From the NCBI RefSeq assembly GCF_027923405.1, contig NZ_BQYI01000001.1:304501-368500 (forward strand): a stretch of 64,000 nt of DNA. Direction: 5' to 3'. Every line of letters starts with the position of its first letter. Position 1 is the first letter of the stretch. Positions 4,849 through 24,581 of the stretch are shown one piece after another. Origin of the DNA: Paenibacillus sp. YYML68 (lineage in GTDB: Bacteria; Bacillota; Bacilli; Paenibacillales; NBRC-103111). The position numbers and the translations under genes are program-made. The notes beneath the pieces were generated by a model that was not told the origin of the DNA, searched no databases, and worked only from the letters and a program-made list of their open reading frames with translations.

Positions 4849-4896
4849 ATAATACAACTTAAGCAAGTTGACCTTTTACCGTTGGTCAGGTCTTTT

Positions 4897-4925: not shown

Positions 4926-5027
4926 GTCCTTTACAACCTCATTTTGTACCAACTGTATCGATACCGTTGATCTAGGATATATAATGTAGGAATAGAACGA
5001 TTGGGTTCTTGGGTAAGGTGGTGCAGC

Positions 5028-5126: not shown

Positions 5127-5172
5127 CATGTGGTATTATGAAGTATGAAAGAACAGAAAAGAGGCTAGAACA

Positions 5173-7686: not shown

Positions 7687-8328
7687 TTAGGATATCGTTT
7701 GCAAAATTTCCCCTACCTGATGATTAAAATCGGAATCGTCTATCGTATCCAGATGCTCTGGTCTAATCATTTGATACTTCTTCATCTTATAAAATTCGAT
7801 TATGGCTTGCTTCAAGGTCAGATCATACCACTGGATACTAAAGGTCGGTTCCATGATCCGCCGCAGCATAGCATCATCTTGAACCAAAGACAGCACGGCA
7901 TTCATTCTATTGAAAACGTTCTGATCCATCCCGCTTTCAAAAAAAGACTGTAAATTTTTGTTTCGATTTTGTTGGGCAACGACAAGCTTTTCATAAAGCC
8001 TCGGATAAAATTCCCGGAGGTCCTGCAGAAACAGATCAGATAAATAAACAACGCACAGCAATGATTGTATATACGTTTTTTGGAAGCGCTCCACATAAGA
8101 GAGAGCCTCATCGTTCACAACGGAATCCGCCTGCTGTAAATACCGAATTTCATATTCTACAACTTTCTCGATGACATCATCTTTGGATGAAAAATGCTTA
8201 TAAAGCGTCACTTTACTGATATCCATATATTTTGCTATCTCATCTATTTTCAATTGGCTGAACTTCGTTTTTCGAATGACGGGCTTAATTTTATTCATAT
8301 AGTGATCTGCGCTCACTGGTTTTCTCAC
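7687..8328 (-). CDS. TetR-family repressor
   Basis: About 213 residues with an N-terminal helix-turn-helix: LKIDEIAKYMDISKVTLYKHF, the canonical TetR recognition sequence, at about 27-47. The all-helical C-terminal domain presumably binds a ligand, but I do not recognise a subfamily. A longer frame starts upstream with TTG, but the GTG at 8328 has AAGGAGG eight bases before it and is preferred. The gene is divergent from an SDR gene, and a palindrome with a strong promoter lies between them. It most likely represses the SDR gene and itself. Confidence 0.82.
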   Translation of the reverse strand: MRKPVSADHYMNKIKPVIRKTKFSQLKIDEIAKYMDISKVTLYKHFSSKDDVIEKVVEYEIRYLQQADSVVNDEALSYVERFQKTYIQSLLCVVYLSDLFLQDLREFYPRLYEKLVVAQQNRNKNLQSFFESGMDQNVFNRMNAVLSLVQDDAMLRRIMEPTFSIQWYDLTLKQAIIEFYKMKKYQMIRPEHLDTIDDSDFNHQVGEILQTIS

Positions 8329-8411
8329 GACTTTAACCTCCTTGGATGCTTGTTCATCATAGTATATCAAACTCTCACACCCTACAGACAGTACGAACTA
8401 ATATTATAAAG

Positions 8412-8428
8412 TTAACTATTTTAGTTAA
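8412..8428. promoter_or_regulatory. Candidate TetR operator
   Basis: TTAACTATTTTAGTTAA is a perfect 7-base inverted repeat around TTT. It lies just upstream of the SDR -35 element and about 85 bases from the TetR start, well placed to repress both directions. Confidence 0.55.
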
Positions 8429-8433
8429 TTTAG

Positions 8434-8462
8434 TTTACTTAAATGAATTCTTAGTGTATAAT
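8434..8462 (+). promoter_or_regulatory. Promoter of the SDR gene
   Basis: TTTACT (8434-8439) and TATAAT (8457-8462) are separated by exactly 17 bases, 35 bases before the SDR start codon. Confidence 0.7.
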
Positions 8463-8497
8463 TTCTCCTGTAGCTACCATTCCATGAGGGTGAAAGG

Positions 8498-9391
8498 ATG
8501 AATAATATGAACGTATTCGTAACTGGAGCGACGGGGTTCATCGGTTCTGCTGTCGTTCGCGAGCTACTCACTGCGGGGCATCAGGTTATTGGACTCGCCC
8601 GCTCCGACAAGGCTGCCGCAGCGTTGTCTGCAGTCGGTGCCGGGGTCCATCTAGGCTCACTCGATGACCTTGATAGCCTGAGAGCAGGCGCTACGTCGGC
8701 GGAAGGCGTCATTCACTTAGCCTTCAAACACGACTTCACCAACTTTACGGCAGCCGCCGCAGCCGATAGTCTGGCAATTGGGGCTATGGGGGAGGCGCTA
8801 CAGGGCACTGGTAAGCCTCTCGTGGTCACCTCAGGCACCTTGATGCTCACACCAGGAATTCTCGGAACGGAAGAGCAGCCCTCAGGACAATCTATACCGC
8901 GGCGCTCCGAGGAGGCGGCACTTGCGCTAGTTGAGCTAGGAGTGCGTTCATCGATTGTCCGTCTCGCACCGTCCGTGCATGGTAAGGGAGAGCTAGGTCT
9001 CGTGCCGGCCCTCATCAGCATCGCGCGTGAGAAAGGAGTTTCAGCTTATGTGGGGAATGGACTCAATCGGTGGCCGGCCGTGCACCAACTGGATGCAGCA
9101 CGTCTCTTCAGACTGGTGCTGGAGAAGGGGGATACCGGTGCCATCTATCACGGGGTGGCAGACGAGGGCGTACCCTTCCGAGATATTGCTGGCGTCATCG
9201 GTCGCCATCTGAACGTGCCCGTGCTCAGCATAACCCCAGAAGAGGCAGACGCTCACTTCGGGTGGCTCGCCTTCGCTGCGTCCACTGATAATCCGACGTC
9301 CAGCACGCTGACGAAGGAACGCTTGGGATGGCAGCCGGTATATCCCGCTCTGATTCCAGATCTCGAACAGGGACACTACTTCAACAGCTGA
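8498..9391 (+). CDS. Extended SDR, NAD(P)-dependent epimerase/dehydratase family
   Basis: The 297-residue protein begins with a Rossmann fold: [18 protein letters not shown] at about 5-22, containing GxxGxxG. Strands follow with VIHLAF and [10 protein letters not shown]. The family's YxxxK is replaced by RRSEEAAL, so it belongs to the atypical, NmrA-like or SDR-a5-type group in which that motif is degenerate. Members are putative oxidoreductases or epimerases of unknown substrate. The ATG has GAGGG seven bases upstream. The divergent TetR gene and an AraC fragment just downstream suggest a small, formerly larger, inducible locus. Confidence 0.85.
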
Positions 9392-9440
9392 ATAACGTTG
9401 GAATGGTTATACTTGTCTGTAAGGACGAGATTAAGACCAT

Positions 9441-9615
9441 CCCGCAAAGGCTTCAGGAAGCGCGGCGACTCCTCTTCACGCAAAGCATTGAAGCGGCTGA
9501 AGCCGCGTACTTAGTCGGATACGAAAGTCCCTCGCATTTCAGTCGGGAATATACCCGTAAATATGGGCTGCCCCCGATGAGGGATCTTCAGCGTCTGCGC
9601 GAGACGCTAGGCTGA
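9441..9615 (+). pseudogene. C-terminal remnant of an AraC-family regulator
   Basis: The sequence [18 protein letters not shown], then [20 protein letters not shown] and GLPPMRDL, is the second helix-turn-helix of AraC proteins of the AraC_N type. In intact homologues this is preceded by a ligand domain of about 190 residues and the first helix-turn-helix. Here the sequence before it is unrelated and the preceding SDR gene ends only 50 bases earlier. It is a 3' fragment left by a deletion. Confidence 0.75.
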
Positions 9616-9649
9616 AGCGGATTTATATGCAGTGAATCAACGATACCGA

Positions 9650-9930
9650 CCGATGGTGCGACCAGAAGGCGTCCGGCCACTGCAGCTGCAGGCAAGTCAG
9701 AGCGTTCTCCATCTGCAGCACACGGTGAACGACTGGGAGGAGAAGCTGCGGCCGCGCGACGTACATACAACGCCAATGTCGTGGCTTACAACAACGCAAT
9801 CGGTATAATCCCGGCTGTTCTATTTGCGGGTATGCTCGGCTTCAAGTCGGAGTCGATGTATGAGGTCTCGGAGTCCAAAAAGCAAGATGTCGATATGAAG
9901 CAATTGTTGAAGGCCAAAAGAAAGCATGCC
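9650..9930 (+). pseudogene. C-terminal remnant of a LemA-family protein
   Basis: The frame RRTYNANVVAYNNAIGIIP, then FAGMLGFKSESMYEVSES, matches the last helix and tail of LemA proteins (RxxYNxxVxxYNxxI...P...FAGMxGF). Upstream in another frame, LQLQASQSVLHLQHTVNDWE resembles the preceding LemA helix, implying a frameshift near 9730. The N-terminal membrane anchor is missing. A continuing frame to 10017 is probably read-through. Confidence 0.5.
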
Positions 9931-10021
9931 GAACGAGACCGCACGCCCATTTTCGCAAAAAAAATCAATAAACAAGGGGCCAATTCTGGTATGGTTGGTA
10001 TACATCTATGGAGGTGATCTG

Positions 10022-10897
10022 ATGAATGAGATGCAATCGGTAGCCCGAGCCATTGCTTACATAGAGTCCCATCTGACGGATGAAATGACAGTAGAGCAGG
10101 TTGCGGCTGAGGCTGGCTACTCTCCGTTTCACTTCCACCGAATATTCACAGCGGTTACACGGAGTTCGGTTTCGGAGTACATAAGGGGGCGAAGGTTAAC
10201 CTATGCCGCATACGACTTGTTTCATACAAGCCTTAGGATCATTGAGATCGCGGTCAAATATCACTTCTCATCGCAGGAAGCCTTTACGCGGTCGTTTCAA
10301 CGGATGTTCTCGATCACTCCGGGACAATTCCGCAAGCAGAAGCATATGAAGGACACGCTGTTCCGGGCCATGGAGAAGAAACCACTGGATGAGCTGGGGC
10401 TGCGGCATATACGTGAAGGCATGACCTTGGAGCCCGAGATCTTATCAGTGAGCGAGCTAACTCTAGTGGGCCTGGAGATTCGGGGTCTCGCCTCAGAGCA
10501 CATTCAGGAACTATGGAGCTCCTTCAGGCAGCGTGCGGCAGAGCTCGAGCATAGTCGAGTTCACCCCTCCATATTTTACGCGCTTATTGAGCTCACCGGA
10601 TTGAAGGAGGAGGTCTCATACACCGCTTGCGTCGAGGTTGGCAGGGAGGGGAGGACGCCTGACGGGATGGCGACGAAGGTGTTGCCGTCAGCGACGTATG
10701 CGGTGTTCTCCCATAAGGGAACCGTAGAGAGAATACCAGATACGTTCCAGTATATTTATAGCGCGTGGCTGCCTAAATCGGGGAACATTCGCTTGAATCA
10801 ACCGGAATTTGCGCGCTATGACCATAGATACCTAGGGCCGATGCATGAGGCATCGGAGCTTGATATCTATATCCCAATTGGTCTGAGTACAACTTAA
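10022..10897 (+). CDS. AraC-family regulator with GyrI-like effector domain
   Basis: About 291 residues. The AraC DNA-binding domain comes first (about 8-107): VARAIAYIESHL, VEQVAAEAGYSPFHFHRIF, and the second motif IAVKYHFSSQEAFTRSFQRM with the P-F motif TPGQF. A GyrI-like small-molecule-binding domain follows (about 130-290), as in Rob/BmrR-type multidrug sensors. GGAGGTGATCTG precedes the ATG at 10022. The alpha/beta hydrolase starts 12 bases after the stop, so the two are probably one operon. The expected role is sensing a lipophilic cation or drug. Confidence 0.88.
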   Translation: MNEMQSVARAIAYIESHLTDEMTVEQVAAEAGYSPFHFHRIFTAVTRSSVSEYIRGRRLTYAAYDLFHTSLRIIEIAVKYHFSSQEAFTRSFQRMFSITPGQFRKQKHMKDTLFRAMEKKPLDELGLRHIREGMTLEPEILSVSELTLVGLEIRGLASEHIQELWSSFRQRAAELEHSRVHPSIFYALIELTGLKEEVSYTACVEVGREGRTPDGMATKVLPSATYAVFSHKGTVERIPDTFQYIYSAWLPKSGNIRLNQPEFARYDHRYLGPMHEASELDIYIPIGLSTT

Positions 10898-10908
10898 CTT
10901 AATGAGAA

Positions 10909-11808
10909 ATGGAGCGATTTCTTACCATGAAGCCTAATCATCGGAAAGGGTACGCAGGATACCTCGAGGTGCAGCTATTCGACTCCTCACAAGGAATCGG
11001 CTACCCCATGACGGTCATGTATCCGACCGACCAGCCTGAGCAAGAAGAACGGCTAGGACCCTACCTGCTCGGATTAGCTAGAGATGCAGAGCTCTCGGAA
11101 GGGGAGCTTCCACTTGTTCTCATTTCGCACGGTACGGGGGGCTCTCCTCTTGTATACCGGACACTTGCGCGGCATTTAGCGCGAAACGGCTTTATCGTGG
11201 GGATGCCGGAGCATCCGCATAATAATCGCAACGACAATAGCCTGGAGGGGACGATTCAGAACCTTGCGAACAGGCCGAGGCATCTTCGTTTGGCTATCGA
11301 CTGGTTTTTTGAGCAGGAGACGTTTCGAAGAAGAATTCAGACCCATGCTGTTTCAGTGATCGGGCACTCCTTGGGGGGCTACACCGCGCTGGCTGTAGCA
11401 GGAGGCTTGCCTACCTCGTTTCCTCAGGAGTCAGCGGACGGACAATCCCGAAGCATAGAGGTCGTCTCGGATGACCGCGTGAGCGCTCTGGTGCTATTGG
11501 CGCCGGCGACGGTGTGGTTTCGGGCGGACGATGCCTTGCGGGCGGTTCATGCTCCGATCCTTATGCTCGATGCGGAGAAGGACCCGTACACGCCTTCATT
11601 CCATGCACAACTTGTGATGAAGGGGGTTGCTGACCCAAGTAAGGTTCGTTACCGAACAGTCGACAATGCGGGACACTTCTCCTTCCTGAGCCCCTTCCCC
11701 CCATCGATGAAATCTCCATCATTTCTTCCATCCCAGGACCCTCCTGGCTTTGACCGGGATTCGTTTCATGAATGGCTTAACGATGAAGTGTTGAGCTTCC
11801 TACGCTGA
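10909..11808 (+). CDS. Alpha/beta hydrolase (dienelactone-hydrolase/PAF-AH-like)
   Basis: The 299-residue protein has the nucleophile elbow VIGHSLGGYTAL, an oxyanion-region LVLISHGTGG and a late His in DNAGHFSFLSP. DAEKDPYTP supplies the likely acid. The layout resembles predicted dienelactone hydrolases and bacterial PAF-acetylhydrolase-like enzymes. No signal peptide is seen, so it is cytoplasmic. The start is either 10909 or the ATG at 10927; neither has a strong ribosome binding site, so coupling to the preceding AraC gene is likely. Substrate unknown. Confidence 0.82.
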   Translation: MERFLTMKPNHRKGYAGYLEVQLFDSSQGIGYPMTVMYPTDQPEQEERLGPYLLGLARDAELSEGELPLVLISHGTGGSPLVYRTLARHLARNGFIVGMPEHPHNNRNDNSLEGTIQNLANRPRHLRLAIDWFFEQETFRRRIQTHAVSVIGHSLGGYTALAVAGGLPTSFPQESADGQSRSIEVVSDDRVSALVLLAPATVWFRADDALRAVHAPILMLDAEKDPYTPSFHAQLVMKGVADPSKVRYRTVDNAGHFSFLSPFPPSMKSPSFLPSQDPPGFDRDSFHEWLNDEVLSFLR

Positions 11809-11829
11809 GCGCCTGAATAGTATTCTTGG

Positions 11830-11985
11830 GTGGGGGATTGTGGTCATCATACGCCGGGGCATATGGCAGGTCATATCTCGCTCTATCCACCCGCAAGCCA
11901 AACGATGATCGCTGGTGACGCTGTCGTCATCGAGGGGGATGAGCTTCACATCGCGAATCCGCAATATACGAATGTGGTTATGAGC
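11830..11985 (+). pseudogene. Fragment of an MBL-fold metallohydrolase
   Basis: About 45 residues, HHTPGHMAGHISLY, then AGDAVVIEGDELHIANPQYT, match the zinc-binding third and fourth motifs of metallo-beta-lactamase-fold hydrolases. The N-terminal HxHxDH motif and the C-terminal helix are missing. It abuts the decayed gerC end at 11991. Confidence 0.7.
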
Positions 11986-11990
11986 TACTT

Positions 11991-12880
11991 CTACTTAATT
12001 TCCCCCATATTTTTTATCTTTGTTCGGACATGAACGTTCACTTCCGCCTTGGAAAAAGCTTCGTCCCATTCATCCTGAACCTTTTTCCATTGTTCGTATT
12101 CGTACGCTCGCGCGAATAGCCCAAGCCCGATCGGATCAATATGAAGCTTTTGAAGCTTAGTGAGTAAGCTGGATATTTTCGTTCAAGCTCTACATTGATC
12201 ATCTGTTCAAGCTTAGACGCTTCATGATCTACATCGAATGGGAATATTCGTTCGGTCAGAAAGATCGGCGTGCTAAGTGTAATATCAAAGCGAAACGTGC
12301 CGCCTGTGTGGGACGTCTTCACTTTTCTCTTAATATCTGTGCAGTAGAAGCTTAGGACATTCATCTCAAAGCTACTCTTCTTTTGCCGGATCTCAGGTAT
12401 TTTCAAGCTAAGGGACAGGTCGCCGCGCGTTTGTTTCTGAAGCATATGGAGTAGAGAGCTTTCTTCCAATGATATCGTTGTCACATATTGTCCTTGTTTG
12501 TTCAGCAAGGCCGTTCCGGTTGCCTGTATTTCGGTAGGCTTCGCATTCAAGCGTATTTCAGGAAGATACGGTGTAATTCCTTGCTCGTGGATATGTCGGT
12601 TCAGCATAAAGAAGGGTGTCGCCATAACGATATTTCTCTTATTTGCTGTATCGATCAGCTTGGCAATAAACAGGGAAAGCCTTCCCTTATCTTTAGGCTT
12701 GAAAAACATGATCTCTTCGATGGAACCATCTACGGCGATCACTCGGACGATGCTTCGGTTTTGAGAATCGCGCTTAAAGACGTCGAGTAGCTTGTACCAA
12801 TCCTCGTGCTGCAGAACCTTTCTACTAATGAGTAAGTTCTGAATTTTCCCTGTGCTGACCAGCGCCATGCCGATCTTCAT
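11991..12880 (-). pseudogene. gerC: Decayed gerC (spore germination lipoprotein)
   Basis: The minus strand encodes the body and C-terminus of a Ger(x)C protein: SRKVLQHEDWYKLLDVFKRD, RNIVMATPFFML and TPYLPEI in the main frame (from 12880). After a frameshift near 12165 it has LQKLHIDPIGLGLFARAYEY to a stop at 11993-11991. Intact proteins have about 370-400 residues with a lipoprotein signal; here the first 90 or so residues, including the lipobox Cys, are absent. The ATG at 12880 overlaps the gerB-tail stop (ATGA), which may preserve the original start codon with a deletion just after it. Confidence 0.8.
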
Positions 12881-12960
12881 CGAGTACTGCCTCCCCGTCG
12901 TCTAATGATGAGGAGAACGATCCATAGGAACAAAGGGAGCATACGCAGTCCAACAGCCTC
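12877..12960 (-). pseudogene. gerB: 3' tail of gerB (germination permease)
   Basis: In the frame ending at TGA 12879-12877 the minus strand reads EAVGLRMLPLFLWIVLLIIR, then RRGG. This looks like the final transmembrane helix and basic end of a GerB-type permease. Only about 28 residues survive. The sequence is joined directly to the gerA end, so most of gerB has been deleted. Confidence 0.5.
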
Positions 12961-14096
12961 GGGGGAGCGATCGGTGTGATGAAGGATTGCCCCAGTGAAT
13001 TCATGCGCACAAGGTGAGCTAATAAGATCATGGCCCCTGCGACGATACCGACCAAGCCGAATATGGATGCAAGTACCATGAACAGAAAGCGGATCAAGCG
13101 TATGGAGGCAGTGATATCGTAATTCGGCAAAATGAACGTAGCAATAGCTGTCGTTGCAACGACCACCACCATAAGGTTACTGACGATCCCCGCAGCATTT
13201 CTAGAATCATCTCCATTAATAACGCCTCCATGAAAGGAGGAAAGGGTACAGCGGCTCGGAATTCACCAATCGATAATATAAAATCGAGTGGGATAACTTC
13301 ATGATTAAATGAAAGCAGCGAGATGTACAGAGCAGGTAAAAAAACGGCTATGCAGCACGCAAACAATCGTAGTAACCGCAGAAATGTTGCTATAGGCCAA
13401 CGAATGCTGTAGTCGTCAATGTTCTGAAAAAAAGATACAATGCTTACAGGTGCAACCAAGATGCTGGGGGAACGGTCCAAGACGACACAAATTCGACCTT
13501 GCAATAGCTGCGACGCGGTAGAGTCCGGGCGTTCTGTTGAAATGAACTGAGGAATTAATGAGAAAGGGTGATCTTCAATATACTCCATAAGCTCCCCCGT
13601 ACTTAGAACACAATCGACGTTCAAGGCGGAGAGTCGTCGTATCATCTCCTGTAAGAGCTTAGGATGGGCAACATCCTCGATATATAAGCAGAACAGCGTG
13701 TTCAATGTCCAGCCAGTCTACAAGTGTGCGGTGAGCTCCAGCAGTCACGGGGAGGTTCTGCTCGTCACTCACGGTGTGAAACATTAATGGGCGCAGCAAG
13801 TTATTATTAATTGCATTTTTATCCGACAAGCCGGAGAAATACACCAGAGCCGCTTGCTGGCCCGCCTGCTTATAGAAGAACTCACAGACGATCAGGTCAG
13901 GCGTATGACTGAACACTTCCCTTAACGTACTCAGATTTCCGAAGAGCTCGGATGATACAGCTCCCCGTTGCGGCGTGCGGTCATTCGGGTCTGCTACGGC
14001 ATTGAGAGCTAGAATCCGACTTATGTAACGAGATATTCGTAACCATGACATCTGCGATACGCTCCTCGACCAGTAGTAAAAACTTGTTAGTAGCAT
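12961..14096 (-). pseudogene. gerA: Decayed gerA (germinant receptor A subunit) with frameshifts
   Basis: GerA homology is spread over three frames. From 14096 to about 13700: ELFGNLSTLREVFSHTPDLI. From about 13705 to 13190: FCLYIEDVAHPKLLQEM, a DRSPSILVAP stretch and membrane helices with AVFLPALYISLLSFN. From about 13172 to 12961: VVVVATTAIATFILPNYD, helices, and RMNSLGQSFITPIAPP. Frame changes near 13700 and 13180 plus loss of the C-terminal tail make it non-functional. The intact A subunit is an inner-membrane protein of about 480-520 residues that triggers germination with GerB and GerC. The copy is probably redundant in a genome with other ger operons. Confidence 0.85.
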
Positions 14097-14200
14097 TCCT
14101 ATATTTGTAACGTTTATGCGTATATGTCCCTATTTAGCCCCTACATGCATGTGGACAGGTGGGCTAGAGAGCTGAGCCGCAAGGATGGATGCGGATTCGG
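14097..14200. other. Intergenic region between gerA remnant and rsbQ
   Basis: It contains TAGCCC ... GGGCTA arms (about 14136-14167) with an inner ACATGCATGT palindrome, and no T-run on either side. It could be a leader hairpin of the dead ger operon. Nothing else is seen. Confidence 0.3.
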
Positions 14201-14230
14201 TTGACAATATCAAGATATATCCTTTTAAAT
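14201..14230 (+). promoter_or_regulatory. Promoter of the rsbQ-kinase operon
   Basis: A consensus TTGACA at 14201-14206 is followed after 17 bases by TTTAAA (14224-14229), about 50 bases before the rsbQ start codon. Confidence 0.65.
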
Positions 14231-14281
14231 TGAGGAAGGTAGTAGTAGGCTTACTGAATGGGTAAGAAGGAGGCGCTATGT

Positions 14282-15100
14282 ATGGATCAAAGTATCGATA
14301 TCCGAAAACGAAATGACGTGAACATAACCGGATGGGGCACTAAGCCCATCATCTTCGCACCGGGCTTCGGCTGTGATCAGCGAATGTGGAGGTATGTGTC
14401 TCCATCGTTCGAGCAAGATTATCGCGTAATTAACTTCGATTACGTGGGTGCGGGCAATTCCGATCTGGGGTGCTATGACTATGCTAGGTACAAGGAGCTC
14501 TCTGGTTATGCGCAGGACGTCATTGATGTTCTGGCTGCGCTTGAATTGCAGCAAGCTATATTCGTCGGACACTCCGTCAGCAGTATGATTGGACTGCTTG
14601 CTTCTATACAGGCTCCGCAGTACTTCGAGCGTCTTATTATGATCGGTCCTTCCCCGTCTTACATTAATGATCCACCTGACTACATGGGCGGCTACGAGGT
14701 GAGTGCTCTTGAAGGTCTTCTGGAGCTGATGGACAAAAATTATATGCAATGGGCAAGCGTCTTTGCCCCCATCATTATGAAGAATCCAGATCGTCCGAAG
14801 CTAGCGGAGGAGCTGGAAGAGAGCTTCTGCTCGACCGACCCGGTCATTGCCGGCAACTTCGCAAGGGCCACCTTCTTCTCGGATAATCGGCAGGATCTTC
14901 CGAAGGCGACCGTTCCGTCGCTCATTATGCAATGCGCGGATGACGCGATCGCGCCAAGACAAGTAGGAGAATATATACATCAACATATGCCTAGCAGCGA
15001 GATTCGATATATGGAAGCAACGGGGCACTGTCCACATCTGAGTCACCCTGAGGAAACGATAGCGCTAATTAAGGACTATCTCTCCACGTTACATAGCTAG
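14282..15100 (+). CDS. rsbQ: RsbQ-like alpha/beta hydrolase
   Basis: The 272-residue protein is close to B. subtilis RsbQ along its length: [44 protein letters not shown] with nucleophile S98, a QCADDAIAP acid loop and [11 protein letters not shown] with the catalytic His. In B. subtilis RsbQ is needed by the PAS-phosphatase RsbP for energy-stress activation of sigma-B. Plant strigolactone and karrikin receptors share this fold. AAGGAGG eight bases upstream selects the ATG at 14282. The next gene, four bases downstream, is a PAS histidine kinase and not an RsbP phosphatase. The inferred role is to produce or deliver a small hydrophobic ligand to that kinase's first PAS domain. Confidence 0.9.
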
Positions 15101-15104
15101 ATAC

Positions 15105-16529
15105 ATGATCATTGATGCGAATCAGTTGCCATGCGGATACGTGTCGTTGTCGCTCGAAGGAGTCATGCTGTCGATTAATGATCAGCTGCTGGAGTGGGTC
15201 GTTGCCGAGCGTGACAAGACCGAGGGTCGTCACGTGAACGAGATTTTGACGGAATCAAGCAAGCTCTTCTACCAAATGTACCTGTTTCCTATGCTGAAGC
15301 TGCAAGGCAAGGTTGAGGAACTATACATGACTCTGAAATCCGGGGACGGGTCTGAAGTGCCTGTCCTTCTTAATGGAACATGCAGTCAGCGACAAGAAGC
15401 GACGGTCATCGATTGCATCTTGATCCGAACACCGAATAGACACAAGCTTGAGCATGAGCTCCTAGTTGCTAAGAAGGCCGCACAGCAGGCTACCCAAGTG
15501 ATCGTGGAGTCGGTGAGCGATGCCATTATTATGACCAATCATAGCATGAGCATCATCGCTTGGAATAAAGGGGCCGAAGCACTGTTCGGCTATACCGAGC
15601 AGGAAGCACTCGGACAAGCTCTAGAGACCATCGTTCCTCGACATCTTCAAGAGACACACGGTCAAGCTGTAGAGCGTCTGCGTGCCACCGGGCAATCGAT
15701 GGTCATTGGACGTATGGTCGAATCGAGCTTACTGCGCAAGGACGGGACGGAGTTCCCTGCGGAGATGTCATTGAACTGCTGGCAGACCAATGGCCAGTAT
15801 TACTGGAGTGCCATCATACGCGATATGACTGAACGGAAGCAGACCGAGGCGCTGCTGTTAAAGTCAGAGAAGCTCAGCATCGCAGGTCAGCTTGCCGCCG
15901 GCATTGCCCATGAAATTCGCAACCCGTTGACGGCGATCAAGGGCTTTCATCAATTGATGAAGGCAGAGGGGAACGGGAAGGCGTTTTATTTTGACATACT
16001 GACGGAAGAAATGAATCGAATCGAGCTTATCGTAAATGAATTGTTACTCCTCGCCAAGCCGCAAGCTGTACAGCTCAAGCCAGTGGATGTAAGAGCCCTG
16101 CTGGAACGGGTGTACACACTGATGGAATCCCAGGTGCATCTTCATAATATTGAAGTCGAATTGAAGTGCGAGCCCCGTGTGCGGACATCTATTCGATGCG
16201 ATGAAAATCAGATGGTGCAAATCTTCATCAATTTCATTAAGAATGCGATAGAAGCGATGCCTCATGGCGGGAAAATCATTATCGCGATAACGAATCCCGA
16301 TGAGGATCGCATCTGCATACGCATTATCGACCAAGGTGTGGGCATTCCTGAAGATATGCTGAAGCGGCTCGGGGAGCCCTTCTATACGACGAAAGAAAAA
16401 GGAACAGGGCTAGGGCTCATGGTCTGTCGCAAAATTATAGAGGATCACCTCGGATCGTTAAACATCACAAGTCGATTGAACGAAGGGACGACGGTCGAGG
16501 TGCTGCTGCCAGTAGGGAGCAAAGGGTAG
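15105..16529 (+). CDS. PAS-PAS sensor histidine kinase paired with RsbQ
   Basis: 474 residues without transmembrane segments. PAS 1 (about 5-115) has LPCGYVSLSLEGVMLSIN and YLFPMLKLQGKVEE, like the RsbP-type PAS that partners RsbQ. PAS 2 (about 125-245) has VSDAIIMTNHSMSIIAWN, GAEALFGYTEQEALG and WSAIIRDMTERK. HisKA follows with the H box GIAHEIRNPLTAIKGF, then HATPase_c with NFIKNAIEAMPHGG, DQGVGIPEDM and GTGLGLMVCRKI. The C-terminal half resembles Bacillus sporulation kinases (KinA/KinE type), so the phosphoryl acceptor may be Spo0F; no response regulator is encoded alongside. It starts four bases after rsbQ with little ribosome binding site, implying coupling. Confidence 0.9.
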   Translation: MIIDANQLPCGYVSLSLEGVMLSINDQLLEWVVAERDKTEGRHVNEILTESSKLFYQMYLFPMLKLQGKVEELYMTLKSGDGSEVPVLLNGTCSQRQEATVIDCILIRTPNRHKLEHELLVAKKAAQQATQVIVESVSDAIIMTNHSMSIIAWNKGAEALFGYTEQEALGQALETIVPRHLQETHGQAVERLRATGQSMVIGRMVESSLLRKDGTEFPAEMSLNCWQTNGQYYWSAIIRDMTERKQTEALLLKSEKLSIAGQLAAGIAHEIRNPLTAIKGFHQLMKAEGNGKAFYFDILTEEMNRIELIVNELLLLAKPQAVQLKPVDVRALLERVYTLMESQVHLHNIEVELKCEPRVRTSIRCDENQMVQIFINFIKNAIEAMPHGGKIIIAITNPDEDRICIRIIDQGVGIPEDMLKRLGEPFYTTKEKGTGLGLMVCRKIIEDHLGSLNITSRLNEGTTVEVLLPVGSKG

Positions 16530-16602
16530 CGACCGTCATTCCTTCCTTCCCAGTGTCTCCATGGCATGGGAACATCTATATTGAACGTGATATACGTTAA
16601 AT

Positions 16603-17988
16603 TCACGACTCCTGCACTTGCTCAGACTCTCGGTGCTTCCAGCTCGTGAATACGAGGGATAATGCGAAGCAGACGAGGATTAGCCCGAGGGTCCGAAATC
16701 CCCCGAAACTGAATTGCTTCCCCAATACGATACCGATTAATAACGATGAGAGGATCGCTCCTAAGTTCCTGGCTGTGCTGAACAGCCCGGAGGCTACACC
16801 GATGAGGGCCTGCGGGGAGCTCCGGAACAAGGTCGCTTGCAAGCTGACATTACTCAAGCCGTTGGCGATGCCGAACGCCGCTAAGCCCAAGCATACGCTG
16901 AGCAACGGTGAGGTTGGCGTCCATGTTAGAATCCAGGCTGCTCCTAAAGTCATCAGCATGGCAGCCAAACGTAACGCCGGCCGGGGCCCAGATCGGTCGA
17001 CCCATCTGCCCGCAAATGGAGTTATCAGAAGCGAGCTCAAGCCTAACGTTAACATGAGAATTCCGGTATGGAGCTCACTAAGGTGACGAACCGTTTGTAA
17101 ATAGGATGGAATTCCGAAGAAGAGCGCGTAAAATAGCACGTTCACCAGCATGAAATTGACATTGACACGTGTGATCGCTGGATAACGAGCCAGTGCTGGT
17201 AACGGAATAAAGGGAGCTGCTGCTCGTCGTTCATGTTGAATGAAGGTCCCCAGCAGAACAACGCCAGCGACAATGGCTGTGACATGAAGCCAGGAGACGT
17301 GCACAGTGGATTTGGCCGAGAGGAGTCCGATGAGCAGGGACACCAGTCCTGCTGTAAACAGCAAAATACCGAGCGAATCGATCCGATCCAGCCATTGGCG
17401 GAGGGTGAGGCGCTGTGCAACGGTGGACATGCTCTCATCCTTAGGAATGATCCAGTAGCAGAGCAGTAAGCTCAGCACGACAAACGGAACATTCACCGCA
17501 AAGATCGCGTGCCAATCCCACGTATAAATCAACATCCCGCCAATAAATGGACCAATAGCTGCGGCCCCGGATTGGAATACCGTCAATACGGAGATTGCTG
17601 TCGCCTGGTTCTCTTGGGTATGCGTACGAATAATGGCCATACCCGCTGTTAGCAGCATGCTTGTTCCAATGGACTGTACAATCCGACACACCAGGAGCCA
17701 GCCAAACGTTGGCGAGTACGGAGCGAACAGAGATGCGATGAGCGCGACGATCAGGCCGAGGAGGAAGATTTTTTTGCGGCCGAATAGATCACTAGCCTTG
17801 CCCATGACAGGATTGGCGATAGCACTGGCGATGTAGAAGGAGAATATAATCCAGGACACCATAGTAAAATCAAGCCGATACACGTGCTGCAGCCTTGGGA
17901 TCGCGACAGCGACCATCGAGGAATTTAAGGGGTTAAGCAGCATTCCAAGTCCAACGGAAATCATGAGCCACCAACTGCGAGCGTTCAT
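16603..17988 (-). CDS. MFS drug-efflux-type transporter
   Basis: About 461 residues, nearly all membrane helices. The N-half has SSMVAVAIPRLQHVY (a version of the DHA2 motif D1), and GKASDLFGRKKIF, the family motif A at loop 2-3. Motif C-like GAAAIGPFIGGMLI occurs in helix 5. Length and helix count (probably 12-14) fit the EmrB/QacA (DHA2) group or a related efflux subfamily. The TTG of a longer frame at 18003 lies inside the Shine-Dalgarno, so the ATG at 17988 (GGAGG eight bases upstream) is used. It is divergent from a LysR gene, its probable regulator. Proton-coupled export of a drug or metabolite is expected. Confidence 0.85.
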   Translation of the reverse strand: MNARSWWLMISVGLGMLLNPLNSSMVAVAIPRLQHVYRLDFTMVSWIIFSFYIASAIANPVMGKASDLFGRKKIFLLGLIVALIASLFAPYSPTFGWLLVCRIVQSIGTSMLLTAGMAIIRTHTQENQATAISVLTVFQSGAAAIGPFIGGMLIYTWDWHAIFAVNVPFVVLSLLLCYWIIPKDESMSTVAQRLTLRQWLDRIDSLGILLFTAGLVSLLIGLLSAKSTVHVSWLHVTAIVAGVVLLGTFIQHERRAAAPFIPLPALARYPAITRVNVNFMLVNVLFYALFFGIPSYLQTVRHLSELHTGILMLTLGLSSLLITPFAGRWVDRSGPRPALRLAAMLMTLGAAWILTWTPTSPLLSVCLGLAAFGIANGLSNVSLQATLFRSSPQALIGVASGLFSTARNLGAILSSLLIGIVLGKQFSFGGFRTLGLILVCFALSLVFTSWKHRESEQVQES

Positions 17989-18015
17989 CGTATAGTCCTC
18001 CAACGTTGTTTAAGA

Positions 18016-18038
18016 ATATCGTACTGGAAGGTGGATAT
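18016..18038. promoter_or_regulatory. Candidate LysR binding site in the MFS-LysR divergent region
   Basis: ATATC (18016-18020) and GATAT (18034-18038) form an interrupted inverted repeat with a 13-base centre, about 30 bases upstream of the MFS start. TATACT near 18055 could be a -10 for LysR. Spacing is close to, but not exactly, the classical T-N11-A box. Confidence 0.35.
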
Positions 18039-18098
18039 ATACTCCAACGCATTTTATACTATGATTACATGGATTCGAAGGAATAAGGGGGCGGGGAT

Positions 18099-19004
18099 GT
18101 GGAGCTGCTTCAACTGCAATATTTCATTACTGTGGCCCGACTGGAGCACATGACCGAAGCGGCGCGTAGTCTGCATGTCACGCAATCATCCTTAAGCAAG
18201 ACGATTCAACGCTTGGAGGAAGACCTCGGGGTGCCGTTGTTCGATCGAACCGGGAAGAAGCTGCGACTCAACGCATTCGGCAGTCAATTCCTTCAACGCG
18301 CGGAACGGGCCTTGTTCGAGCTGGAGCAGGGTAGGCAGGAGCTACGCGATATGGCGAGTCCGGAGTATGGGACGATTGAGCTGGCAGTAACGACAGCGAG
18401 CACGCTGCCGAATATTCTTCGAGCGTTTCGGGATAAGCGGCCTCATGTCCAGTTTCATGTGCAGATGGTCCACACCGAGAGAATGACAACACTTCTTCGT
18501 CGCGGCGAGGTTGACTTCTGCTTATCTTCACCGCCAGTTCAAGAGGATGATATTGAATGTCAGATCGTTCTTGTCGATCCGATCCTACTGGCCGTTCCCC
18601 AAGGGCATCGTCTGGCTAACCGAAGCCAGGTCTTGTTAACCGAGCTGAGGGACGAATGGTTTGTTGGTGTGAAGAAGGGCTACGGCGCTCGTGATTTCAT
18701 CGATCAATTATGTCAGTCGGCGGGCTTCGAACCGAAGTTTGTGTATGAGGGGGATGAACCAGCCAGATTAAGCGCTTTAATCGAAGCTGGGGTGGGGATC
18801 GCCTTTATCCCAAGCTCAGCAAGAAATCCACGAGATCCTATCTGTTATTTGCAAATAGAGGAGGAACAGCTGGTACGGCAAATCGCGTTATGCTGGCACA
18901 AAAGTCGGTATCTCTCACGAGCTGCACAGGAGTTTCGTGAGGTCGTTATCGAATACTTTCGATCCACCAGCGACGAGATGAAAGGAACAACAGCCCGATG
19001 GTAG
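18099..19004 (+). CDS. LysR-family transcriptional regulator
   Basis: 301 residues. The N-terminal winged helix has LQLQYFITVARLEHMTEAA, HVTQSSLSKTIQRLEEDLG and VPLFDRTGKKLRLN (about 3-60). A periplasmic-binding-protein-like effector domain follows (about 90-290), with IELAVTTASTLPNILRAF and LIEAGVGIAFIPSS. The start is GTG at 18099 after AAGGGGGCGGGG. It faces the MFS gene and probably activates it in response to a substrate. Its stop overlaps the start of the next, secreted protein gene by seven bases, so that gene may share its transcript. Confidence 0.9.
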   Translation: MELLQLQYFITVARLEHMTEAARSLHVTQSSLSKTIQRLEEDLGVPLFDRTGKKLRLNAFGSQFLQRAERALFELEQGRQELRDMASPEYGTIELAVTTASTLPNILRAFRDKRPHVQFHVQMVHTERMTTLLRRGEVDFCLSSPPVQEDDIECQIVLVDPILLAVPQGHRLANRSQVLLTELRDEWFVGVKKGYGARDFIDQLCQSAGFEPKFVYEGDEPARLSALIEAGVGIAFIPSSARNPRDPICYLQIEEEQLVRQIALCWHKSRYLSRAAQEFREVVIEYFRSTSDEMKGTTARW

Positions 19005-20968
19005 ACAAGCTTAGAAGAAATAAATTGGCAATGCTGCTCGTATCGGCAGTGGCTCTTGCAACGGGTGCATCGGTGATGGTGGATACGGTGCAGAATGGGC
19101 AATATGCCGCAATACCCGCTCTACCCTCGGTCGCCGCTCCGGATCGTACCGGTGCTGTGCTATGGGCCTTGGAAAATGGACAGCCATTCGATCCGGCACA
19201 ATTGGACAGCAGTATACAATTTATTAACGCACGGTATGACACCTCGGATTTCCGTATACAGAATGTGTTGCGACTATTATATAAGCATCCTGACAAGCTG
19301 GACCTTGCCACGCGTGAGCAGTTAAAGGATACGGTACTCCGCTTCAAATATTGGATGGATGAGCCGGGACAAGACAGCATGTGCTATTGGTCGGAAAATC
19401 ATCAAATTTTGTTCGCGGCCGCACAGTACTTGGCAGGCCAGCTGTACCGTGACGAAGTATTCATGAATTCCGGCTTAACCGGGCAACAACTGATGGTAGA
19501 GGCAAGAGAGCGCATCATGTACTGGCTTGCCCAACGGTGGGAGTATGGTTTCTCGGAGTGGTATTCGAATGTGTACTACAAAGAAGATGTGGCGGCGATG
19601 GGCAACATCATCGAATTTGCAGAGGACGCGGAGCTCGTGACCAAGACGTCGATGATGATGGACCTGCTGCTCTACGACATAGCTACCCAGTCCTACAAGG
19701 GTACGATGGTAAGCACCTCCGGCAGAGTGTACGAGAAGCACAAGAAGGCAGGCAAAAACGCCAGCACGAGTGCGATAGCTGATTATGCGCTGGGCACGAA
19801 CAGCTGGGGCAAGGACCCTAAGCTTACTACAGCAATTGATCATAGTCTGATCTATAATAACAACTACGAAGTGCCCCCTGTTATTAAAGAAATCGGCAAT
19901 GACCCGGGTACCGCGGAGATCAAGGCATCGAACGGATTGGATGTCATGGAGCTTGCAGGCGAAGGTCTGATCGGGCAGAGGGATGACCAGATCATGATGC
20001 AATGGGCGATGGAGGCGTTCACGAATCCTCCTGTCATCACGAATTCGCTCGAGTATATCCGTAAGAACAACCTGCTGCATAATGCGTTCCTGCATGACTT
20101 CAAGGATATTAATTATACGCTGCTTGTTAAGCTGAACCTACTGCCGGTTATGAGTAAGTGGTTCAATCCGCAGACGAACGGTATTGCGATACAGCGAGCG
20201 AACACGTATACGTACCGCACGTCCGATTATCTCATGGCCACCGCGCAGCGTTACCATCCCGGCGAGTATGCCGATCAGCAGCACATTCATGTGACGACGC
20301 TCGGCAAAGACGTGAGCATCTTCCATACGCATCCCGCTGTGTCTAAGGGCAGTAAGAGCGGGGGATCGCCTGGCTACTGGGTAGGCTACGGACGGTTGCC
20401 GGATTCCGCACAGCATAAGAACATTAATCTGTCGATCTATGTATTGCCTGATCAGAAGGGGATGCTGGAGAAGAGCCTGCAGCCTTATACGCATCATTAT
20501 TTGCCTGAGGATCAATTCGAGCAGGTCATCATTGACGATCGATATGCATTCGCGAAGCATGGTAATACCTATGTAGCGCTCATTGGATTGAATCCGCTCG
20601 GTTACGGTACTCCTAACGCCCAAGGTATCCATGACGACTTGCTGCAGGAGGGTCGAGAGACGTTCTGGGTCACCGAGGTAGGCACAGCTTCAGCCGACGG
20701 GACTCTCGATGAGTTCATGGCCCGGATTAAGGCCAATACCGTCACCTATTCGAATCAGCAGCTGACCTATCATTCGTCGGGGAACACGTTCCGTCTTGCC
20801 TACCAGTCCAGCTTTACGATCAACGGCCGCGATGTGGACACCAGCTATGCGAGAATGGACTCGCCGTATGCGAAGGTGCCTCGCAAGCCAACCCGTATTG
20901 ACATTAGCTACAATGGCAAGAGCCTGCATCTCGATTTTGCCAACAATGTCCGAAGCTATTCAAACTGA
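18998..20968 (+). CDS. Secreted or membrane-anchored protein of unknown function
   Basis: A 656-residue protein with an N-terminal hydrophobic segment (about 10-28, LAMLLVSAVALATGASVMV after a basic start), so exported or anchored. Residues 50-360 look helical, with aromatic-rich motifs (DSMCYWSENHQILFAAAQYL, RWEYGFSEWYSNVYYKED), reminiscent of the alpha/alpha toroids of polysaccharide lyases and heparinase-like enzymes. The C-terminal part (about 400-656) looks beta-rich (YWVGYGRLPD, FWVTEVGTA). I do not recognise a named family, and the catalytic role is a guess. The ATG overlaps the LysR stop by seven bases, and translation is likely coupled. Confidence 0.7.
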   Translation: MVDKLRRNKLAMLLVSAVALATGASVMVDTVQNGQYAAIPALPSVAAPDRTGAVLWALENGQPFDPAQLDSSIQFINARYDTSDFRIQNVLRLLYKHPDKLDLATREQLKDTVLRFKYWMDEPGQDSMCYWSENHQILFAAAQYLAGQLYRDEVFMNSGLTGQQLMVEARERIMYWLAQRWEYGFSEWYSNVYYKEDVAAMGNIIEFAEDAELVTKTSMMMDLLLYDIATQSYKGTMVSTSGRVYEKHKKAGKNASTSAIADYALGTNSWGKDPKLTTAIDHSLIYNNNYEVPPVIKEIGNDPGTAEIKASNGLDVMELAGEGLIGQRDDQIMMQWAMEAFTNPPVITNSLEYIRKNNLLHNAFLHDFKDINYTLLVKLNLLPVMSKWFNPQTNGIAIQRANTYTYRTSDYLMATAQRYHPGEYADQQHIHVTTLGKDVSIFHTHPAVSKGSKSGGSPGYWVGYGRLPDSAQHKNINLSIYVLPDQKGMLEKSLQPYTHHYLPEDQFEQVIIDDRYAFAKHGNTYVALIGLNPLGYGTPNAQGIHDDLLQEGRETFWVTEVGTASADGTLDEFMARIKANTVTYSNQQLTYHSSGNTFRLAYQSSFTINGRDVDTSYARMDSPYAKVPRKPTRIDISYNGKSLHLDFANNVRSYSN

Positions 20969-20977
20969 CAGGTCCAA

Positions 20978-21006
20978 TTGACAATTAACAATAACTGGCG
21001 TAATAT
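20978..21006 (+). promoter_or_regulatory. Promoter of the TetR-DUF3995-monooxygenase operon
   Basis: TTGACA (20978-20983), a 17-base spacer, then TAATAT (21001-21006). It is a near-consensus sigma-A promoter starting ten bases after the preceding stop codon. Confidence 0.8.
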
Positions 21007-21042
21007 GACCTTAGTCAAATAATGACTACGGTCATTTTTTTT
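21005..21042 (+). promoter_or_regulatory. Combined operator/terminator hairpin before TetR
   Basis: The arms 21005-21017 and 21023-21035 are a 13-base inverted repeat (ATGACCTTAGTCA against TGACTACGGTCAT, one mismatch) with a 5-base centre, followed by eight T residues. Overlapping the -10 and the expected start site, it suits a TetR operator. As RNA from upstream it is a good intrinsic terminator for the preceding gene. Confidence 0.65.
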
Positions 21043-21056
21043 ATGGAGGTGAGCGC

Positions 21057-21647
21057 ATGCTCAGACAATTACGCAAGGAAGAGCTGAAGGAGCGCATATT
21101 CGAACAGGCGGTGCAGCTTTTTCATGACAAGGGGTATGAGCAAGTGACGGTACAGGAGATCGCCAGCCAGTGCGGGATCGCGAAGGGAACGTTCTTCAAC
21201 TATTATGCGAAGAAGGAAGACATCTTATTGGATCTGGGAGAATCGCAGCTGGAATTGCTGGAGGAGAGCGTGGTTAGGCATCAGCATGTGGAGCACCCGA
21301 AGGAGCGGGTCCTGCTCGTGCTGAATGATCTGCTGCTTCGGTTCGCGGACAATAGTGAGCTTATGAAGCTGGCTGCTGTTGAGATGATCAAGTCGGCCTA
21401 TCTGACCGAGAAGGAATCGAGAAGCGTGAGACAATTGCACGCCCAGCTCTCGAGCTTAATCGATCGATCGAAGGAGGAGGGGAGGCTGCGAAGTCGTTGG
21501 GAGACCGACGATATTGCGACCACCCTTGTCAGTGTGTACTTTCATACGATGATGTCATGGACGTTGCTGTCTGCTTCAGGTGCGTCCATTAGCGAATCGC
21601 TCGAGAAGCAACTGAACGTCGTCTGGGATGGAATTGATAGCATATAG
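21057..21647 (+). CDS. TetR-family repressor
   Basis: 196 residues. The helix-turn-helix lies at about 12-57: RIFEQAVQLFHDKGYEQVTV, QEIASQCGIAKGTFFNYYAK and KEDILLDLG. The C-terminal helical domain (about 70-195) has no diagnostic motif I recognise. GGAGGTGAGCGC precedes the ATG. It heads an operon with a DUF3995 membrane protein and an FAD monooxygenase, and a palindrome overlaps its promoter, so autorepression and control of the two downstream genes is the likely role. Confidence 0.87.
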   Translation: MLRQLRKEELKERIFEQAVQLFHDKGYEQVTVQEIASQCGIAKGTFFNYYAKKEDILLDLGESQLELLEESVVRHQHVEHPKERVLLVLNDLLLRFADNSELMKLAAVEMIKSAYLTEKESRSVRQLHAQLSSLIDRSKEEGRLRSRWETDDIATTLVSVYFHTMMSWTLLSASGASISESLEKQLNVVWDGIDSI

Positions 21648-21668
21648 CGATTATGGGGGGCGAATTAC

Positions 21669-22091
21669 ATGGTTACGACAATTGTCATCTTTGCTGCTGG
21701 TTGTTTGTTCGCGATAAGCTTGCTGCACATCTACTGGGCGTTCGGGGGGACGTGGGGGACGAAGGCTGTTATTCCCGAGGAGGCAGGTCAGCGAACCTTC
21801 ACGCCAGGTCCGGCGGTTACGCTGCTAGTGGCGGCATTCGTTGCCGCAGCGGGCATCCTCCTGCTCATGGAGGCGGATCTAATTGCAAGGCTTCGTGGAC
21901 TGGACTTCATCGTTCGGGCAGGCGCTTGGACGTGTGCCGCTGTATTCGCGCTGCGAGTCATAGGGGAATTTAATCAATTCGGCCTGTTTAAGAAAAAACG
22001 CCATACGACCTTCGCCCGCATGGATACGTTGCTCTATGTTCCACTATGTGCGGTATTGTCGCTGGCGTACATTCTAGCCATACAATTCTAG
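21669..22091 (+). CDS. DUF3995 family membrane protein
   Basis: 140 residues, about four transmembrane helices, no signal peptide. LHIYWAFGGTWGTKAVIPEE near the start, then FTPGPAVTLLVAAFVAAAG, and FNQFGLFKKKRHTTFARMDT before the last helix, match DUF3995 proteins. Their function is unknown. They often neighbour TetR or redox genes. The gene lies 21 bases after TetR and ends 23 bases before the monooxygenase start. Confidence 0.75.
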   Translation: MVTTIVIFAAGCLFAISLLHIYWAFGGTWGTKAVIPEEAGQRTFTPGPAVTLLVAAFVAAAGILLLMEADLIARLRGLDFIVRAGAWTCAAVFALRVIGEFNQFGLFKKKRHTTFARMDTLLYVPLCAVLSLAYILAIQF

Positions 22092-22114
22092 CGGACGGAA
22101 TAGGAGGGGATGTA

Positions 22115-23251
22115 ATGTCACGTACGGTACTTATTATCGGCGGGGGGATTGCGGGTCTCACCTGTGCGATCGCCCTGCAGCAGCTAGGGATGAATGTGCT
22201 GGTATACGAACGGGAGATGGAGCCGACAGTGGCTGGTGCAGGTATTATTATAGCGCCGAATGCGCTGAAGGCGCTCGAGCCTTATGGAATCGATCGTGAG
22301 ATTCGGCGTGAAGGCATGCCCAGCGACGGCTTCCAGCTGTTAACGGATGCGGGGAAGACGATCAGCCAGCTATCCGTACCCTCCGGCTATGGTCGCTTAT
22401 ATGCGCTGCATCGCAAGGATCTGCATCAGATGCTTCTGTCGAGATTGAAGCCAGGGACGGTGGAGTGGGGGAAAATATATTCGCACCATGAACAGGCTGA
22501 AGGCGGAGTGCGCGTTATATTCCGCGATGGCAGTCAGGCGCAAGGAGAGCTCCTCATTGCCGCCGACGGCATTCACTCGGCTCTCCGCAAGCAGCTCTCC
22601 CCCCATACTGCCTATCGCTATGCGGGCTATACGTGCTGGCGCGGCATCGTCTCAACGGATGACCTGCCGGAAATATCCCATCATTTCATCGAGACGTGGG
22701 GAGCAGGAGGGAGATTCGGTATCGTGCCGCTGCCGCATCATCAGGTGTACTGGTACGCGCTAGTGAATGCGAAGGCGAACGATTCGCAGCTAGCGAGCTA
22801 TACGGCTCAACACTTGCATTCGTTGTTCAAGGATTACCATGACCCCATCCCAAGTCTGCTGCAGAAGACGGCAAGCCGTGACATGATCCATCGTGATATA
22901 ATCGATATTGTACCGATGCAGCGGTTCTATACGGACCGCGTTGTGTTCATAGGGGATGCCGCGCATGCCATTACACCGAATATGGGGCAGGGGGCGTGTC
23001 AGGCGATCGAGGATGCGAGCGTGCTGGCCGACTGTCTGCGTCGCCATGGGGATTATAGAGAAGCTTATGCCGCGTACGATAAGAGGCGTCGTAAGCGTAT
23101 GGAGTGGATTTCGAAGCAATCGTGGTCGTTCGGGAAAATTGCACAAGCAGAAGGCGCTCTATTCATTGCTGCTCGTAATCAGCTGATGAGAGCTGCGCCC
23201 AAGGCGATGTACCGAAGCCAGGCGAAGAAGCTGTATGACGTTCACGTGTAA
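22115..23251 (+). CDS. FAD-dependent aromatic-hydroxylase-type monooxygenase
   Basis: About 378 residues. FAD-binding motifs appear in order: VLIIGGGIAGLTCAIAL (GxGxxG, about 5-21), the DG motif LLIAADGIHSALR (about 150), and the GD motif VVFIGDAAHAITPNMGQGAC with the helix QAIEDASVLADCL. This is the class A flavoprotein hydroxylase fold (p-hydroxybenzoate hydroxylase, UbiH, TetX). AGGAGGGGATGTA precedes ATG 22115; an upstream in-frame start would overlap the DUF3995 end. Substrate unknown: an aromatic, polyketide or antibiotic is possible. The TetR context suggests induction by the substrate. Confidence 0.88.
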   Translation: MSRTVLIIGGGIAGLTCAIALQQLGMNVLVYEREMEPTVAGAGIIIAPNALKALEPYGIDREIRREGMPSDGFQLLTDAGKTISQLSVPSGYGRLYALHRKDLHQMLLSRLKPGTVEWGKIYSHHEQAEGGVRVIFRDGSQAQGELLIAADGIHSALRKQLSPHTAYRYAGYTCWRGIVSTDDLPEISHHFIETWGAGGRFGIVPLPHHQVYWYALVNAKANDSQLASYTAQHLHSLFKDYHDPIPSLLQKTASRDMIHRDIIDIVPMQRFYTDRVVFIGDAAHAITPNMGQGACQAIEDASVLADCLRRHGDYREAYAAYDKRRRKRMEWISKQSWSFGKIAQAEGALFIAARNQLMRAAPKAMYRSQAKKLYDVHV

Positions 23252-23306
23252 TTGGGATACAAATAACTAGACAACGATGCCATTGACGCGACTGGAGATG
23301 AACATC

Positions 23307-24455: not shown

Positions 24456-24475
24456 TAACGGAATCTATATCGTTC

Positions 24476-24501
24476 AGGAGTCCTAAGTTGGGGCTCTTTT
24501 T
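24476..24501 (+). terminator. Terminator of the response-regulator gene
   Basis: GAGTCC (24478-24483) pairs with GGGCTC (24491-24496), including one G-U pair, followed by TTTTT. It lies about 20 bases past the stop codon. Confidence 0.7.
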
Positions 24502-24581
24502 GTCGTTTCTGTCATTTTGCCGTCATTGGCGTTCGTTATAATGAAGCGGTGATAAGATCGACATCCGTTGGGGGGCATATT

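Follow-up and report, generated by a model that had tools for sequence, protein, structure and literature searches.

An RsbQ-type alpha/beta hydrolase of Paenibacillus sp. YYML68 is encoded directly upstream of a soluble histidine kinase, and it probably acts through the first PAS domain of that kinase (PAS 1) to set the flow of phosphate into the sporulation phosphorelay; the pair would accordingly be an RsbQ-PAS sensor with a KinA-type output. Both genes lie in the window, i.e., the whole stretch of 64,000 nucleotides that was analysed, and their features are collected in Table 1.

In B. subtilis, RsbQ needs its catalytic triad and must touch the PAS domain of RsbP, and two models have been offered for its action, in which either a product of the hydrolase is delivered to the PAS domain or the hydrolase is itself the receptor (Nadezhdin et al. 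2011, PMC3183031). The same paper, which calls the RsbQ cue mysterious, describes the RsbQ-PAS module with three kinds of output, namely a phosphatase, a diguanylate cyclase, and, only in Gram-negatives, a histidine kinase. The module and its histidine-kinase coupling have therefore been known since 2011, then for Gram-negatives only; what is new, as far as our searches reach, is a kinase output in Bacilli, with a core of the sporulation type that carries the KinA/KinE specificity residues, spread as a two-gene cassette. In a 2023 comparison of Bacillales that worked with orthologue groups, RsbQP and RsbKY are both listed for Paenibacillus, rsbP and rsbY share one group, and the sections consulted describe no kinase partner of RsbQ (PMC9847131). 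Additionally, a 2025 survey of Paenibacillus sporulation reports KinA to KinE, Spo0F, Spo0B, and Spo0A as conserved, with no mention of RsbQ in the portions used here (PMC12826061). No published pairing of RsbQ with a sporulation kinase emerged from a literature search that excluded preprints and covered few subscription papers.

Table 1. The hydrolase-kinase pair and its parts, in window positions
Feature	Position	Strand	Description
RsbQ-type alpha/beta hydrolase gene	14282..15100	+	272 aa; 391.8 bits vs 1wom; triad S98, D221, H249
Histidine kinase gene	15105..16529	+	474 aa; soluble orphan; PAS-PAS-HisKA-HATPase_c
Ribosome-binding site AAGGAGG	14267..14273	+	8 nt upstream of the ATG at 14282
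PAS 1, RsbP-PAS class	15105..15458	+	residues 1-118; L48, F55, Y59, P62, E72, P86; by profile and predicted fold
PAS 2, ordinary PAS_9/PAS_4 domain	15495..15842	+	residues 131-246; by Pfam; 17.6 bits to the RsbP-PAS profile, not RsbP-like
HisKA	15885..16067	+	residues 261-321; phosphoacceptor H269; specificity residues TAGFQL; by Pfam
HATPase_c	16200..16514	+	residues 366-470; by Pfam

The hydrolase and its RsbP-type PAS partner

The two reading frames are intact and stand in tandem, with four bases between the hydrolase stop and the kinase ATG. The kinase contains no transmembrane stretch (the highest 19-residue Kyte-Doolittle mean is 1.09), and its domains are recognized by Pfam together with an RsbP-PAS profile, so that the arrangement proposed in the first-pass annotation, a hydrolase four bases from a soluble PAS-PAS-HisKA-HATPase protein, stands. 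A longer mechanical frame that opens at 14258 was dropped for the in-frame ATG of Table 1, since the ribosome-binding site precedes that codon. Scans for promoters and terminators gave no signal above shuffled sequences. The pair is flanked downstream by an MFS transporter gene and upstream, on the opposite strand, by a gerA/gerC spore-germination remnant (12038-14096, - strand). This operon looks decayed, because GerA is broken into two frames (13094-13705 and 13659-14096), and the GerC-like frame is missing the beginning of its N-terminal profile. Farther along the window, an open frame of 656 aa (18998-20968, + strand) has no Pfam match at E 0.001.

The best solved relative of the hydrolase is B. 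subtilis RsbQ (1wom, E 1.6e-116), followed by the Olei00960 protein (3qvm, 270 bits), the plant KAI2/D14 receptors (at most 206.6 bits), and ordinary hydrolases. Its catalytic triad is intact in an alignment with the hydrolases of L034, a member of the same clade, and of L197, an RsbQP pair from a relative of B. subtilis; the hydrolase also shares a tree branch with that of L197, which has 88.6% identity to the 1wom fragment. Among the matches listed, NCBIfam gave no equivalog name above its cut-off for either the hydrolase or the kinase. By these sequence comparisons, the window hydrolase is a true RsbQ relative. The likeness extends to KAI2 and D14, plant receptors for which we know of no PAS partner, which are homologous alpha/beta hydrolases that use a Ser-His-Asp triad for signaling.

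Pfam finds no match in kinase residues 1-118; nevertheless, this region is assigned as PAS 1 because the RsbP-PAS profile and the predicted fold both match. The AlphaFold2 model folds as a PAS domain with a mean pLDDT of 90.3 and a single helix over residues 50-67, and the best 50 of 1416 PDB matches retrieved with it by Foldseek are PAS or LOV proteins. The profile was built from 58 RsbP-PAS domains, taken from partner proteins of RsbQ homologues across named and unnamed loci with the clade of the window excluded. PAS 1 scores 131 bits against it, whereas the best other single PAS domain among 41 further kinases, i.e., 29 from the same genome and 12 from genome G609, reaches 26 bits; the kinases of the same genome were taken from 30 loci with 1.5-kb flanks, which can cut long kinases. 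One of them, L154, attains 50.6 bits as the sum of several PAS domains, against 148 for the window kinase. The alignment that the first-pass annotation had called for gives 40% identity over 117 residues between PAS 1 and the RsbP-PAS of L197.

The residues to which RsbP is sensitive are retained as well. L48, F55, Y59, and E72 are essential in RsbP and P86 is an important contributor, while changes to F55 or Y59 weaken the contact with RsbQ in a two-hybrid assay (Nadezhdin et al. 2011, PMC3183031). Each of the six distinct members of the clade to which the window kinase belongs has all five. Over the wider set of class residues (C10, L13, L48, F55, Y59, P62, E72, P86, a basic residue at 53, and an aromatic one at 56), PAS 1 departs only at L13, where V keeps the position hydrophobic; the RsbP of L197 keeps all ten reference residues at the B. 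subtilis numbering. K and Y take the places of RsbP Q53 and C56 in PAS 1 and are commoner than Q and C among 122 rows. No DIT motif is seen by eye at the end of PAS 1, which reads IRTPNRHKLE, and PAS 2 ends in RDMTERK. Judged by profile and residues, PAS 1 is an RsbP-PAS, specifically RsbP-like, as had been noticed from the sequence alone. The pair resembles RsbQ-RsbP of B. subtilis in its RsbQ with the same triad, in the gene order with the hydrolase directly upstream, and in the N-terminal PAS of the RsbP class with its functional residues. It differs in its output: the PPM/SpoIIE phosphatase domain of RsbP is missing from the window partner, in which Pfam recognizes HisKA and HATPase_c instead, preceded by an interposed second PAS.

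Kinase class and phosphorelay specificity

The receiver closest to the HisKA domain lies 7.4 kb away, and the kinase is therefore called an orphan. An orphan HisKA kinase with an N-terminal PAS is the signature of a phosphorelay sporulation kinase (PMC6136694), and the window kinase displays it. Its closest relatives in the same genome are five kinases without a receiver within 5 kb (46-55% identical in the core), and the KinA-like kinase L267 of G609 is 55% identical in the core and 75% in the DHp; the remaining kinases, outside this Kin-like group, score at most 105 bits. Of the kinases with solved structures, sporulation kinase B (3d36, 152 bits) is the closest. Against the KinD equivalog NF053867 of NCBIfam, the window kinase scores 216 bits, in its C-terminal part only and below the cut-off of 775 bits. 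In the kinase tree, its clade (support 100/99) is nested in a 20-row sporulation-type set (100/100) together with KinD, KinA-like, and other orphan kinases of Bacilli.

Six specificity residues have been given for the sporulation kinases, namely TAGFQL for KinA and KinE, TVGFQL for KinB, TSGFQI for KinC, and TGGFQL for KinD (Davidson et al. 2018, PMC6136694). The offsets used here were fitted to these published strings; applied to the five Kin-type kinases of G609, they return all five strings. One of these, L266, is KinD by NCBIfam (896 bits). The other four carry names that we presume from their specificity strings. Specificity was scored at 27 of the 39 HisKA places of the window genome (30 loci were taken, three of which gave no motif match), and the window kinase alone has all six residues of the KinA/KinE string, while eight others reach five of six. 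These results, along with the position in the sporulation-type set, bear out the earlier suggestion as far as the kinase is of the sporulation phosphorelay type. Within the clade, TAGFQL recurs in L034, L036, and L089. The remaining two of the six members, L035 and L088, have TSGFQL instead, which is a point against a KinA-type sporulation target. The specificity residues show some degeneracy, and eight kinases of the same genome stand at five of six; the window kinase may therefore be one of several redundant inputs.

The downstream components are encoded in the genome. A Spo0F gene occurs in all six clade genomes, with 68-81% identity to that of the window genome, in which Spo0A is found at 418 bits. 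Spo0B is also present, between two frames that we take, by eye, to be ribosomal protein L27 and Obg. Beside L27 and Obg is where spo0B normally sits (Davidson et al., PMC6136694). Spo0F is the best-supported target and an RsbY-like receiver a weaker alternative, because the kinase has the TAGFQL string, spo0F, spo0B, and spo0A are all present, and the hybrid kinase of the sigma-B-like locus of this genome reads NSILQL. The window kinase is thus akin to KinA to KinE in being an orphan that bears PAS domains, in being soluble like KinA and KinE, and in sharing their specificity residues; it is unlike them in that the PAS at its N-terminus is of the RsbP class and has an RsbQ gene dedicated to it.

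Recurrence and origin of the pair

Hydrolases at E 1e-50 or better were found in 132 of 392 genomes of the order, seven of them with two matches (139 places), and in 48 of 398 genomes of the class. Sixty order-level regions were examined, a non-random set made up of 11 from the family of the window genome besides the window, genome G057, and f10 places from both ends of the list; 20 class-level regions were added. An RsbP-PAS gene follows the hydrolase in 59 of the 60 (36 GGDEF, 21 short PAS-only, two histidine kinase) and in 19 of the 20 (14 GGDEF, two histidine kinase, and three with a SpoIIE phosphatase: L197, L200, and L201), although the profile that recognizes these partners was built partly from the same loci. 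The phosphatase type thus makes up 3 of the 80 surveyed Bacilli loci. Among 43 named loci, the partner is a histidine kinase in 29, a GGDEF protein in five, and an unclassified long protein in eight, and one has none.

In Bacilli, the histidine-kinase type forms a single clade of six genomes, which comprises the window genome, Paenibacillus turpanensis (L034, G044), Ammoniphilus sp. YIM 78166 (L036/L196, G548), Litchfieldia salsa (L035/L195, G704), G057, and G290. The kinases of the five relatives are 71-76% identical to that of the window and their hydrolases 75-80%, and the gaps between the two genes range from -4 to +4 across the clade. When window positions 8001-25000 were compared with about 2-6 kb on each side of the relatives' pairs, the flanking genes of the window were absent beside the pair in the other five genomes, except for one 28% match to a distant window gene. 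The pairing is more than chance, because the same pair stands in five other genomes without the neighbors it has in the window; the genome survey thus upholds the recurrent adjacency that the earlier reading relied on, and neither of the two outcomes named there as refuting was observed. Of 24 congeners, none has the RsbQ-kinase pair at the threshold; four possess an RsbQ relative, in each case with the short PAS type.

The short RsbP-PAS partners, of about 115-200 aa, end after a helix without an output domain and accompany 21 of the 60 order-level RsbQ genes (L077-L080, L083, L090-L093, L095, L097, L099-L101, L104, L106, L107, L109, L114, L117, and L121). At L100, L117, and L121, the next gene after the short PAS encodes about 377 aa, and that of L117 is a receiver-SpoIIE phosphatase. 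Because the short PAS of L117 precedes such a gene, an RsbY-like protein may be the target, in trans, of the short-PAS RsbQ module. Both the short and the GGDEF versions occur in seven genomes (G042, G064, G127, G230, G275, G311, and G353), and at L211 (G661) two RsbQ relatives are encoded on one strand with about 7 kb between them. A Bacillus MAG (L037, at about 4798-5700) encodes a sister hydrolase with no adjacent PAS partner, and its downstream frames look by eye like CheW and CheA.

In the hydrolase tree, the clade (100/97) falls in a branch with other Bacilli RsbQs (99/96), which also includes the Alteromonas-type GGDEF hydrolases and two Aquabacterium hydrolases of the histidine-kinase type; those of Hymenobacter, Pseudomonas, Azohydromonas, and Neorhizobium lie in another branch. 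Descent from the Gram-negative RsbQ-linked kinases was considered and rejected: in the kinase tree, eight of their nine cores group together elsewhere, and the ninth, L066, on a long branch, likewise falls outside the sporulation-type set (support for all nine as a single group is only 66/39). On the hydrolase alone, the separation is incomplete, because the two Aquabacterium hydrolases sit within the branch that holds the Bacilli. The Gram-negative systems (Hymenobacter and its kin, Pseudomonas, Aquabacterium, Azohydromonas, and Neorhizobium) thus place the same module on HisKA kinases, whereas their cores match one to four of the six residues of the Kin strings, against six of six in the window, and most, not all, of their hydrolases branch apart. 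The Bacilli RsbQ-PAS-GGDEF proteins share the large hydrolase branch, the PAS class, and the bacterial order and class with the window pair and differ in their diguanylate cyclase output.

These trees are most simply explained if an RsbQ-PAS module of Bacilli was coupled to a local kinase of the KinA type. The earlier idea that the kinase had taken over the module from a sigma-B phosphatase was not borne out by the hydrolase tree, in which no phosphatase ancestor is evident, since most of the surveyed Bacilli relatives are linked to GGDEF or to short PAS-only partners and few to a phosphatase. Horizontal transfer of the two-gene cassette is suggested by its patchy occurrence among congeners and by the absence of the window's flanks elsewhere; it is not proved, because the Spo0F identities across the same genomes are similar.

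Mechanism, alternatives, and meaning

By analogy with B. subtilis, the hydrolase would meet or process a small molecule and contact PAS 1 at its F-alpha helix. The resulting change would reach the HisKA dimer by way of PAS 2 and the helices of PAS 2 and would set the autophosphorylation of H269, with activation assumed as its sign. Phosphate would then pass from H269 to Spo0F, Spo0B, and Spo0A, and the module would add a vote to the sporulation decision. Catalysis by the hydrolase is presumably needed for signaling, and we infer every step past the gene pairing and the residue conservation. Because a second PAS stands between PAS 1 and the kinase, a signal other than that of PAS 1 may dominate.

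HisKA kinases can be bifunctional, and the sign of the effect may be the reverse of the one assumed. The kinase could thus reach Spo0F mainly as a phosphatase, so that RsbQ signaling would drain the phosphorelay and delay sporulation. We regard this as unlikely, considering that RsbQ acts positively on RsbP in B. subtilis (PMC3183031) and that KinA to KinE are phosphate donors (PMC12826061). A still less likely, though possible, alternative target is the sigma-B-like locus of the same organism (L258, G000:C1:1097000-1116999), through which the module would feed general stress if the kinase phosphorylated an RsbY-like receiver-phosphatase that acts on RsbV and RsbW. The locus encodes a receiver-SpoIIE phosphatase, a three-receiver hybrid kinase, CheR, a receiver-kinase, two pairs of STAS (RsbV-like) and RsbW-like proteins, and a sigma-B-like factor, the RsbW and sigma-B matches being under the NCBIfam cut-offs; moreover, RsbQ serves sigma-B in B. 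subtilis, and at L117 RsbQ and a short PAS gene directly precede a receiver-SpoIIE phosphatase gene. However, the locus has kinases of its own, of which the hybrid kinase (L145) reads NSILQL rather than TAGFQL, and the window kinase is KinA-like and about 0.8 Mb away.

That the two genes are mere neighbors, with the hydrolase a metabolic enzyme and PAS 1 sensing a ligand of its own, appears very improbable. L037 keeps RsbQ without a PAS partner, and both the RsbQ-PAS binding and the hydrolase product are predictions; against this, the two-gene unit recurs without the window's flanks, the class-specific interface residues are kept, and an RsbP-PAS gene follows RsbQ in nearly all of the surveyed loci, albeit by a profile drawn partly from them.

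The reading preferred here, an RsbQ-PAS sensor with a KinA-type output, would represent a swap of output within Bacilli, distinct from the RsbQ-linked kinases of Gram-negatives. More tentatively, and with rather less than even confidence, we propose that in Bacilli one small-molecule signal, received by RsbQ and an RsbP-type PAS, has been output-swapped into general stress, a cyclic-di-GMP lifestyle, and, as a mobile cassette acting via Spo0F, sporulation, with the short PAS-only partners as a fourth, in-trans version. The KinA-type wiring would provide a clean readout, in Spo0F phosphate and spores, for candidate ligands and would help to tell the delivery of a hydrolase product from a hydrolase that is itself the receptor. 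If true, a sensor of the energy-stress branch would be linked to the decision to sporulate.
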